Shown one piece after another: positions 2,013 through 9,134 of a stretch of 24,328 bases of DNA (the first letter of the stretch is position 1; the number at the start of each line of letters is the position of its first letter). Made by a program: the position numbers and the translations under genes. The stretch spans positions 1-24,328 of the IMG/VR virus record IMGVR_UViG_3300032235_000817, one strand, 5' to 3'. Source of the DNA: a virus. A model generated the notes under the pieces. That model searched no databases. It was given only the letters and a program-made list of their open reading frames with translations, and was not told where the DNA came from.

Positions 2013-2111
2013 TGGTGCCCCTGGCAGGAGTCGAACCTGCACACGCTGGCTTATCTGGCCGGTGCTTTGGGAAGGTATAAGCTTCCGTCTTTACCATTAA
2101 GCTACAGGGGC
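2013..2111 (-). tRNA. interrupted tRNA, probably Ile (GAU), with 24-nt insertion in the D stem
   Basis: Acceptor GCCCCTG pairs perfectly with CAGGGGC. A73 and CCA are encoded, and the T arm is perfect (GCAGG/CCTGC). The gene is 99 nt. Removing 24 nt (2065-2088) leaves a canonical 75-nt tRNA with D stem GCT/AGC, a 17-nt anticodon arm and a 5-nt variable loop. The anticodon loop then reads CAGATAA, giving GAU (Ile), but position 33 is A instead of the near-invariant U and the anticodon stem has one C-A mismatch. Read without removing the insert, the first hairpin would give a UAU loop followed by an impossible 29-nt variable region. Amino acid identity is uncertain. Confidence 0.7.
2065..2088 (-). 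other. 24-nt hairpin insertion inside a tRNA gene
   Basis: The insert contains the hairpin GGAAG-CTTATAC-CTTCC and is bounded by a 4-bp direct repeat (CTTT on the + strand at 2065-2068 and 2089-2092). It interrupts the 3' strand of the D stem. The repeat resembles a small target duplication, but could also be chance or slippage. Confidence 0.65.
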
Positions 2112-3618: not shown

Positions 3619-3622
3619 AAAA

Positions 3623-3702
3623 ACTATATTGAAACACACTGACGGGAGCTACCCTCAAGACAGACCTCGCTACTCTGTCAATACAATATGCTTCAATATA
3701 GT
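3623..3702 (-). ncRNA. long-stem RNA element, copy 1
   Basis: Leftward RNA of 80 nt. Its ends, ACTATATTGAAGCATATT and AGTGTGTTTCAATATAGT, pair over 18 bp, including G-U wobbles that only work in the leftward transcript. The loop holds two small hairpins (GACAG/CTGTC and GGG/CCC). It abuts the aberrant tRNA at 3703. Arms are shared with copies at 3844-3926 and 4083-4181. Confidence 0.7.
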
Positions 3703-3797
3703 GACCCTTTGTGGGCAGGATTCGAACCTGCATGTGGCGTCTATTTCCACCGGCCCCATAACGGGCCTACGTCTACCAAATTCCATCACCACGGGTC
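3703..3797 (-). tRNA. aberrant Leu-like tRNA or tRNA pseudogene
   Basis: It has a Leu-type D arm (GGAATTTGGTAGACG), a class II variable arm (GTGG/CCAC) and a perfect T arm (GCAGG-TTCGAAT-CCTGC). The terminal helix is odd: GACCC/GGGTC plus GTGG/CCAC with a 3-nt AAA bulge on the 3' side. No CCA is encoded. The best anticodon stem (AGGCC/GGGCC) gives loop CGTTATG, with G33 instead of U33 and nominal anticodon UUA. That would read UAA stop codons if functional, but the loop is so abnormal that I favour decay. Confidence 0.45.
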
Positions 3798-3843
3798 ATC
3801 GGAGTCATGACTTCCGACTACAGTAACGGTTAATTACTCCACT
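3798..3843 (-). other. hairpin-rich spacer
   Basis: Two perfect hairpins on the leftward strand, AGTAA/TTACT and TCGGA/TCCGA. The second has a loop containing TCAT, reminiscent of a Met anticodon arm, but no T arm or acceptor follows. Confidence 0.35.
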
Positions 3844-3926
3844 ACCATATTGAAACACACTAGCCGCTCTGTTACCACCATATGCCTATGGCTTGTATCC
3901 ATTCATCAAATATGCTTCAATATAGT
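3844..3926 (-). ncRNA. long-stem RNA element, copy 2
   Basis: 83 nt, with the same 18-bp arms as copy 1 apart from one change (ATAGT to ATGGT) that keeps pairing as a wobble in RNA. The loop sequence is unrelated to copy 1. Confidence 0.7.
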
Positions 3927-4082
3927 GTCACTCTCCTGACCACATTTAACGGATGGGGTAGAGCCTTGAGTGACTGTCATAGACAGACTTTATTCCTGGT
4001 TGCAACCATAAGTTATGGTAGCTCCTTACTTCGATACGCTCTGGACGTATCGGTCTGGTGGAGTTAACCACGGAGTTAAACT
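3927..4082 (-). other. non-coding hairpin-rich stretch
   Basis: No credible ORF. Leftward-strand inverted repeats include CGATACG/CGTATCG around a 7-nt loop, CCATAA/TTATGG, CTGTC/GACAG, and GTCACTC/GAGTGAC closing about 35 nt. These could be decayed tRNA arms or parts of a structured RNA. None completes a cloverleaf. Confidence 0.4.
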
Positions 4083-4181
4083 ACCATATTGAAACACACT
4101 CCCTTACCCCTATGATGTTATCGTTGGACAACAGGTTTCTCTCCTGCTTTTCTATGATGGATGAATATGCTTCAATATAGT
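4083..4181 (-). ncRNA. long-stem RNA element, copy 3
   Basis: 99 nt, with the same arms as copy 2. The loop contains CAGG-AGAGAAA-CCTG. Arms are conserved while loops differ in length and sequence, so the stem is the constrained part. Confidence 0.7.
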
Positions 4182-4506
4182 GAAGGAATACGCGGCGTTA
4201 TATAGCTTGCACCGAATTACCAATGCCCGCATCTAACTTCTGTCCTTCCACAGCATCACCGCCAACAATGCTTTTCATACCCTACTGGACCGACTTACTT
4301 TCGCATCGTCACTTGTGCTGCCAGCCTTACCGAGTGGACCTATGCACTTGTGAAGCCCATGCATCCACATGGGTCGGTTTCCATCTACTATCTTACTTGT
4401 CATTGTTTTAGTATTTCTGGCGAGTACTTTTTACACGGCTTCCGGCCTTCCGTGATGTTACGGCTGTAAACTTACCTGCAGGACGCGAGTACAGCTATCT
4501 TACATT
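4182..4506. other. 325-nt stretch without a recognisable gene
   Basis: No ORF on either strand looks coding. On the leftward strand there are hairpins CCCATG/CATGGG and CACGG/CCGTG, and the string GTAAGATAG occurs twice. It is probably transcribed as part of the tRNA precursor. I cannot assign it to tmRNA, RNase P RNA or an intron class. Confidence 0.35.
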
Positions 4507-4634
4507 CGGCGTGTGTTACGGGATTCGAACCCGCATTCTGAAGTTATTCCACCGCTACCGCACTTTTCAGTGTTGTGTTTCCACTGTAGACTTATATGGC
4601 CCTCTGTCTTGTCCGTTGGTTAGACGAAACACAC
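4507..4634 (-). tRNA. aberrant 128-nt tRNA-like gene
   Basis: Acceptor strands GTGTGTT and AACACAC pair perfectly. The D arm (GTCT/AGAC, loop with GG) and T arm (GCGGG-TTCGAAT-CCCGT) are good. Discriminator G is followed by CCG, not CCA. Between the D and T arms lie about 71 nt instead of 23 to 38. The best anticodon arm is GGGC-CATATAA-GTCT (nominal UAU, A33), leaving a ~50-nt variable region with a CAGTG/CACTG hairpin. Either it carries an insertion or it is a decaying class II tRNA. The anticodon cannot be assigned safely. Confidence 0.45.
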
Positions 4635-4641
4635 ATAAACT

Positions 4642-4728
4642 TGGTGGGGACTGATGGTAACGCTCCACGTGCCTTGACTTCACTACCTTTAGGAACGGAT
4701 TTACAGTCCGCCGTAGTGGGCAATCCCC
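4642..4728 (-). tRNA. tRNA-Tyr (GUA)
   Basis: Class II. Acceptor GGGGATT/AGTCCCC. Anticodon loop CTGTAAA gives GUA. CCA is encoded. The T loop is AGCGTTA, lacking the usual TTC. Confidence 0.88.
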
Positions 4729-4735
4729 TAAAAAT

Positions 4736-8671: not shown

Positions 8672-8740
8672 TGCCTTATGGTTGTCAAAATCTAGTTTGA
8701 CGCAGGCTCGTCAAGGGAGACACTGCTATTTTCATCCAAA
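8672..8740. other. short intergenic stretch
   Basis: Nothing clear beyond a small inverted repeat GACG/CGTC around 8700-8713. Confidence 0.3.
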
Positions 8741-8820
8741 GGTATTCTAAAATATACTGGAGAACCACCATGCTTCTCCGTATTACGGGAGATATGTCTC
8801 TCAGTATATTTTAGAATACC
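8741..8820 (-). ncRNA. long-stem RNA element, type F
   Basis: 80 nt closed by a perfect 19-bp inverted repeat, GGTATTCTAAAATATACTG and its complement at 8802-8820. The loop contains GGAGAA/TTCTCC and smaller hairpins. Two perfect hairpins lie directly 5' on the leftward strand. Confidence 0.7.
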
Positions 8821-8835
8821 CTGCGTTTCCGCAGG
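8820..8835 (-). ncRNA. 6-bp hairpin with GAAA tetraloop
   Basis: CCTGCG-GAAA-CGCAGG on the leftward strand, abutting element F with one shared base, matching the arrangement beside element D at 5051-5066. Confidence 0.55.
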
Positions 8836-8839
8836 ATAT

Positions 8840-8859
8840 GTCAGGGTCGATACCCTGAC
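8840..8859 (-). ncRNA. 8-bp hairpin
   Basis: GTCAGGGT-ATCG-ACCCTGAC, perfect, upstream of element F on the leftward strand. No T tract follows, so it is not a terminator. Confidence 0.5.
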
Positions 8860-8972
8860 CTGATTCTTACTCCCCACGTTATCGCCATGGGTTTCATGCT
8901 TCAGTACGCCCGTTTGCCAGTGTTTATAGTGCCTAGCGTGGACCTCGTTTCCACCTTTTTACACTGTTAAAA
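8860..8972. other. non-coding leader-like stretch upstream of element F
   Basis: No ORF. Inverted repeats include GTGG/CCAC at ~8939-8954 and a longer-range CAGTG/CACTG. It could be the 3' untranslated region of the 53-aa ORF. Confidence 0.3.
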
Positions 8973-9134
8973 TTATGCGTAAGTTTGACTATTAACTCGT
9001 TTGCGAGTTTCAAAGTTTAGCCTAGCACGTTCTAACTTATCCCGAATCAACTTGTTACGTTGTTCGGGTGTTAGAGTATACTCTGTCGTAAACCTTACCT
9101 CACGCATACGTCGTTTCAAATCTATCTTCCTCAT
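8973..9134 (-). CDS. small basic protein, 53 aa, unknown function
   Basis: MRKIDLKRRMREVRF...RVNSQTYA, rich in Arg and Lys and probably helical (TPEQRNKLIRDKLERARL). A strong RBS (AAAGGAG, three bases before ATG) supports the start. It lies just after a terminator at 9152-9181, so it depends on readthrough or on an unrecognised promoter. A small RNA- or DNA-binding role is possible from charge alone; no family is recognised. Confidence 0.6.
   Translation of the reverse strand: MRKIDLKRRMREVRFTTEYTLTPEQRNKLIRDKLERARLNFETRKRVNSQTYA

Follow-up and report, generated by a model that had tools for sequence, protein, structure and literature searches.

The locus examined here raises the question of which of two anticodon-like hairpins in a single tRNA reads the codon, and what the other is for. 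The window (the whole 24,328-nt stretch of DNA that was analyzed, from IMG/VR virus record IMGVR_UViG_3300032235_000817) carries a run of 20-odd tRNA genes, at one end of which sits a 99-nt gene, encoded CCA included (GCCCCUGUAGCUUAAUGGUAAAGACGGAAGCUUAUACCUUCCCAAAGCACCGGCCAGAUAAGCCAGCGUGUGCAGGUUCGACUCCUGCCAGGGGCACCA; 2013–2111, minus strand, as for all parts of the gene given below). A sequence-only reading had taken it for a tRNA gene interrupted in the D stem by a 24-nt hairpin, which it regarded as a mobile hairpin, a removable insert or, preferably, a step in decay. Our data suggest instead that this hairpin is the decoding arm of a two-armed isoleucine tRNA.

Anatomy of the gene

The tRNA gene itself is real: over its full 99 nt it scored 52.2 bits against the Rfam tRNA family (RF00005; Infernal, cut-off 29, model positions 1–71), and more than 100 relatives share its layout. 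In the Rfam alignment the supposed insert is the anticodon arm, while the arm previously read as the anticodon arm is an insertion in the variable region. The free-energy fold agrees, reproducing the acceptor stem and the anticodon, second and T arms, and the fold of the full gene is better than those of shuffled sequences (z −2.1). The 24-nt hairpin and the direct 4-bp repeat that flanks it (AAAG in the gene, CTTT on the plus strand) are both present as described, but the hairpin lies outside the D stem and forms an entire anticodon arm, bordered by the D arm (GCUU-AAUGGUA-AAGA, 2088–2102, invariant in the window's subfamily) and a second hairpin.

The core of the former insert (2065–2088) is the anticodon arm proper, GGAAG-CUUAUAC-CUUCC (2070–2086), with a 5-bp stem, a 7-nt loop, U33, A37 and the anticodon UAU (2077–2079), which would read the isoleucine codon AUA. 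The second hairpin, CCGGC CAGAUAA GCCAG (2046–2062), occupies the variable-arm position. Its stem holds one C.A mismatch, and its loop, CAGAUAA (2051–2057), contains the triplet GAU (2053–2055) and the A33 that had been correctly noted. A UAU arm combined with a V-position hairpin of loop YNGAUNA defines the two-armed family described below. The V region of 29 nt is that of a class II tRNA, for which a long variable arm has at least 10 nt, and the outer pairs GCA/UGU may close the gap between the second hairpin and the T stem. The T arm (GCAGG UUCGACU CCUGC, 2024–2040), the acceptor stem (5′ strand at 2105–2111, pairing with 2017–2023) and the discriminator A73 with the encoded CCA (2013–2016) complete the molecule.

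ARAGORN called no tRNA in the full 99 nt. Excision of 2065–2088 leaves 75 nt with an intact encoded CCA and, as the sequence-only reading had reported, perfect acceptor (7 bp) and T (5 bp) stems, and this remainder was called as tRNA-Ile(GAU). The two-armed layout accounts for such genes being missed or misread by annotation tools. No Rfam intron family, group I or other, matched in the window gene, and an intron-containing or disrupted tRNA gene was also rejected, because every relative in the family has the hairpin and the hairpin is the Rfam anticodon arm.

Covariation and arm geometry

Among the 18 closest relatives, 99.4% of cells in the five-helix structure were paired, and 13 pairs were changed on both sides, versus 5.9 ± 1.2 in shuffles. 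The acceptor stem had changes on both sides at 4 of its 7 pairs and the UAU stem at 4 of 5 (98.9% of cells paired), while both variable pairs of the GAU stem (50–66 and 51–65) covaried. The UAU arm thus shows every feature of a decoding arm: a covarying 5-bp stem, a 7-nt loop, U33 and A37.

In 41 well-formed clusters of the family, the extra hairpin has 4 bp and 7 nt, and the 3′ linker between it and the T stem is exactly 5 or 6 nt in all 41. The same distance is mostly 1–3 nt in the tRNAs for leucine, serine and tyrosine from those loci, such that the two-armed tRNAs lack the short 3′ linker that places a class II arm close to the T stem. Since the variable loop of class I tRNA-Ile(GAU) is 4–5 nt, the second hairpin, measured from the T arm, sits where the anticodon arm of a class I tRNA would be.

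Relatives and the pairing of UAU with GAU

Scanning IMG/VR with a pattern made of the D-arm consensus, a UAU loop, a long gap and a T arm matched at least 105 contigs, and every gene extracted shares the layout of the window gene. A looser pattern, which left the V-region sequence unconstrained and was run on viral and bacterial contigs (many of the carrier contigs being metagenomic), gave counts that are lower bounds: at least 192 distinct genes in 56 clusters passed cloverleaf checks. Among the matches listed, 187 of 192 distinct genes and 51 of 56 clusters have GAU in the V region, the expectation from shuffled V regions being about 67 of 192; the remaining five clusters look unrelated or badly formed. 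In the same loci, GAU occurs anywhere in the V arms of only 32/190 (17%) Leu, 46/221 (21%) Ser and 5/72 (7%) Tyr tRNAs.

In these UAU-first sets the search pattern itself demanded the UAU loop, which was free only in the V-first set, a reverse scan with CAGATTAG plus a T arm and the anticodon left free. That scan found new loci, and 36 of the 37 fitted tRNAs carry the anticodon UAU, all 36 with U33; the remaining one is not clearly a tRNA. The GAU and UAU arms therefore occur together almost without exception, in more than 150 distinct relatives from phages and bacterial genomes, and the extra arm is restricted to the UAU tRNA, being absent from other tRNAs in the same arrays.

In the loops of the 50 GAU clusters, where GAU itself is found in 50/50 as a result of anchoring the tally on it, the first position is Y in 50/50, position 33 is A in 43/50 and U in 1/50, and GAU is followed by U or A (U being the more frequent at position 37) and then by A in 39. 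This near-invariant Y-N-G-A-U-N-A is the anticodon-loop pattern of tRNA-Ile(GAU) minus U33. A73 is present in 51/56 clusters, and U12-A23 is the commonest pair at its position (36/51).

The sequence-only reading had proposed that homologous tRNAs in related phages would reveal the uninserted form, and that relatives carrying the same insert within a normal variable-arm fold would speak against an insertion. No uninserted form was found. The hairpin is in every relative found, and the related phages carry it in a fold whose extra length forms a variable-type arm, which is largely the second situation. Neither decay nor recent insertion of a mobile hairpin has any appreciable probability left: the AAAG repeat around the hairpin could be taken as the trace of such an insertion, but it is confined to the window's subfamily, while the same architecture with covarying stems, U33 and UAU recurs in at least 192 distinct genes of phages and bacteria.

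In genomes of the Nevskia, Solimonas and Hydrocarboniphaga type (L231, L253, L291, L292, L331 and L332), a further stem-loop or longer insertion lies 5′ of the GAU arm, giving V regions of 32–42 nt and a six-armed molecule.

A tRNA-Ile(GAU) frame and its origin

When the UAU arm was excised from the 51 cluster representatives, ARAGORN called tRNA-Ile(GAU) in 35 and any tRNA in 40, whereas the same excision from 300 ordinary class II tRNAs left a callable tRNA in 17. The most fitting description of these molecules is thus a tRNA-Ile(GAU) frame that carries a UAU anticodon arm in addition. One part of the tRNA-plus-insert reading survives in this result, since removing the hairpin does leave a tRNA-Ile(GAU) frame, but the hairpin would be the decoding arm. 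Recovery of that frame from the window gene and from 35/51 representatives makes the ancient gain of an anticodon arm, by insertion or duplication, a credible origin for the family; the GAU arm having lost U33, the decoding arm would now be the former insert.

The layout implied by the sequence-only reading, in which the GAU arm decodes, the UAU arm is a passenger and the product is a decoding tRNA-Ile(GAU), draws on the same ARAGORN calls and on the AAGC that follows the UAU arm (45–48), which could replace the 3′ strand of the D stem. We regard it as improbable, given that U33 is almost absent from the GAU arm and is kept everywhere in the UAU arm, whose stem also retains all 5 bp. Only the window's subfamily has the alternative D stem, for which reason a general conformational switch through AAGC was also rejected as a mechanism of the family.

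Carriers, AUA usage and TilS

The window belongs to a large myovirus-like phage, with a terminase large subunit 57% identical to those of PA5oct-type Pseudomonas jumbo phages and T4-type genes such as a UvsX-like recombinase and a single-strand DNA binding protein. In its main reading frames, AUA makes up 74 of 339 isoleucine codons. A BLASTN comparison of the window tRNA with cultured phages yielded no homologue; the one match, of 41 nt on the 3′ side, was to a tRNA-Arg. Cultured carriers were reached through the sequence of a relative: Acinetobacter phage vB_AbaS_qsb1 and the Vibrio phages henriette 12B8, Achelous and their relatives, in which the gene is annotated merely as tRNA-Ile. In Achelous it adjoins a normal tRNA-Ile(GAU).

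In alignments to T5, the AUA codons of Achelous stand opposite Ile in 40%, Val in 18% and Leu in 13% of cases, a profile that resembles those of AUU and AUC and differs from that of CUN. Judged from these alignments, AUA very probably still means isoleucine, and reassignment of AUA in the carriers was rejected on the same evidence. The bacterial carriers include roseobacters, Nevskiales-type genera, Acidobacteria, Planctomycetes and others, with the gene either alone or in dense tRNA arrays. TilS was present in 28/28 cellular carriers tested, so the two-armed tRNA would be accessory there, with no need for a lysidine replacement, and a role in replacing TilS in these cells is contradicted. In Ruegeria (L258 4192-7415), the only tRNA at the locus is this one, accompanied by small unknown proteins and an AAA ATPase, and no prophage is obvious.

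Phages also commonly carry class I UAU tRNAs that lack a GAU arm (at least 104 distinct, on viral contigs L394–L513). Many of these tRNAs have U1-A72 or the discriminator C73, which suggests, from sequence, more than one amino-acid identity among them.

Other features of the tRNA region

Several neighboring features of the window are unusual in their own right. At 3705–3797 (minus strand) lies a tRNA whose anticodon loop has 6 nt (GGCCC GUUAUG GGGCC) and which bears a Leu-like extra arm, reported by ARAGORN as tRNA-??? with a two-base anticodon, which could be a frameshift, suppressor or otherwise odd decoding tRNA. Two tRNA-like stretches at 4507–4730 (minus strand) have perfect 7-bp acceptor-type ends (GGGGAUU...AGUCCCC ACCA and GUGUGUU...AACACAC) and were detected by neither ARAGORN nor Rfam; the second is about 130 nt long and has a normal T arm, and could thus contain a genuine internal insertion. 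An element with inverted-repeat ends, AATATGCTTCAATATAGTG ... ACTACCATATTGAAACACACT, is present in three copies of about 90–110 nt each between tRNA genes (3620–3708, 3841–3932 and 4080–4187) and matched no Rfam family. Two gene-poor stretches of the tRNA region, 8700–8990 and 4230–4480 (minus strand), look like structured RNAs, the former with a perfect 19-bp inverted repeat (8741–8759/8802–8820), although neither matched Rfam.

A proposed division of function

AUA reading is a textbook case of modification-dependent decoding, through lysidine or agmatidine, and a UAU anticodon is poorly accepted by most bacterial isoleucyl-tRNA synthetases (IleRSs). U12-A23 is an isoleucine determinant. So are A73 and t6A37, and bacterial IleRS depends on the anticodon and on lysidine (PMC9976931). 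On balance, we favor a functional tRNA-Ile(UAU) built from a tRNA-Ile(GAU) frame and one extra anticodon arm, with GAU serving IleRS and UAU serving AUA. In the proposed mechanism, the UAU arm would decode AUA on the ribosome, while the GAU arm, presented to the host IleRS as an identity element, would permit charging of a tRNA whose own anticodon is a poor substrate, and would be kept from decoding by its lack of U33. The lysidine step that TilS performs on the host tRNA-Ile2(CAU) would be bypassed, and the phage would gain a reader of AUA independent of host modification. We conjecture that the GAU arm may reach the anticodon-binding domain of IleRS through alternative stacking, in which it takes the anticodon-arm position.

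The confidence we place in these parts differs. The anatomy of the two-armed tRNA and the existence of the family seem to us practically certain. For the GAU arm as an IleRS determinant, the sequence evidence leaves us evenly divided: the triplet is identical to the anticodon that IleRS reads, the frame is that of a tRNA-Ile with A73 and U12-A23, and IleRS depends on the anticodon and lysidine, all of which led to the proposal, but the frequent U at position 37 of the GAU loop makes t6A37 impossible there, the abundance of phage class I UAU tRNAs shows that the arm is not always required, and the coexistence of TilS in every cellular carrier tested also counts against it. A natural two-anticodon tRNA in the full sense, identified to IleRS by one arm and reading the codon with the other, with no need of lysidine, is therefore put forward tentatively, at slightly less than even expectation.

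Alternatively, the tRNA could be a class II-like tRNA-Ile(UAU) whose arm is kept as an antideterminant for MetRS, a site for a U34-modifying enzyme or a structural element, the likeness to GAU being incidental. The missing U33, the often missing A37, a stem of 4 bp rather than 5 and the presence of TilS in cellular carriers are in keeping with this explanation, which we consider unlikely but deserving of weight. The conserved Y, G, A, U and A of the loop nevertheless match the tRNA-Ile(GAU) anticodon loop, the stems that close the loops resemble each other (CGA-CUGAUAA-UCG in genuine tRNA-Ile(GAU) arms against CGA-CAGAUAA-UCG for the second arm), and excision of the UAU arm restores the frame. 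A long arm might also invite charging by LeuRS, so that AUA would be partly read as leucine, for which there is in vitro precedent in the nematode nev-tRNA-Ile(UAU) (PMC4300185) and with which A73 is compatible. The isoleucine-like alignment of Achelous AUA codons and an arm positioned unlike that of tRNA-Leu (3′ linker of 5–6 versus 1–2 nt) make such misacylation improbable. Phage tRNAs can evade tRNA-cleaving defenses, and large tRNA arrays in the carriers would suit a second arm that acts as a decoy for, or withstands, host anticodon nucleases or phage-defense ribonucleases, but the restriction of the arm to the UAU tRNA argues against it, no nuclease with such a target was identified, and a decoy function appears correspondingly improbable.

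If the division between the GAU and UAU arms is correct, synthetase identity and codon reading would be separable onto two hairpins of one tRNA, and phages and mobile tRNA arrays would gain an AUA-decoding tRNA that needs no lysidine. The two-armed tRNA is a directly testable system and a possible scaffold for orthogonal tRNAs.

Comparison with known systems

The two-armed isoleucine tRNA family is widespread and apparently undescribed: no description of a second, GAU-bearing arm was found in the open-licence papers searched, and UAU is listed as a lost anticodon in prokaryotes and phages (PMC8007984). Class I bacterial tRNA-Ile(UAU), as in Lactobacillus, Mycoplasma and Bifidobacterium (PMC8450103; references cited in PMC9976931) and found in 17 bacterial genomes in one survey as tRNA-Ile3(UAU) (PMC8450103), likewise uses UAU for AUA without lysidine, but has no extra arm. 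tRNA-Ile(GAU) shares the frame left after UAU-arm excision, A73, U12-A23 and a similar hairpin, from which the two-armed tRNA differs by its added UAU arm and by a GAU arm with a 4-bp stem and no U33.

Among long-armed tRNAs, the bacterial class II tRNAs for Leu, Ser and Tyr also fit the Rfam tRNA model with a long arm between the anticodon and T arms, whereas the two-armed tRNA has an isoleucine anticodon, a conserved 7-nt GAU loop and a longer 3′ linker. Allo-tRNAs are long-armed and bacterial, with UAU among their common anticodons, but have 8/4 or 9/3 acceptor/T stems and are taken to be SerRS substrates (PMC7609411), while the two-armed tRNA is 7/5 with A73, as is the window gene. The nematode nev-tRNA-Ile(UAU) also combines a variable arm with UAU and would decode AUA, yet it is eukaryotic, independent and leucine-charged in vitro (PMC4300185). 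The anticodon-mimic hairpins in mRNAs of aminoacyl-tRNA synthetases (thrS and others; PMC9976931) offer a parallel to the proposed role of the GAU arm, since there too a hairpin outside an anticodon arm imitates an anticodon and binds a synthetase, but those hairpins regulate an mRNA, whereas in the two-armed tRNA the hairpin would act as an identity element within the tRNA itself.
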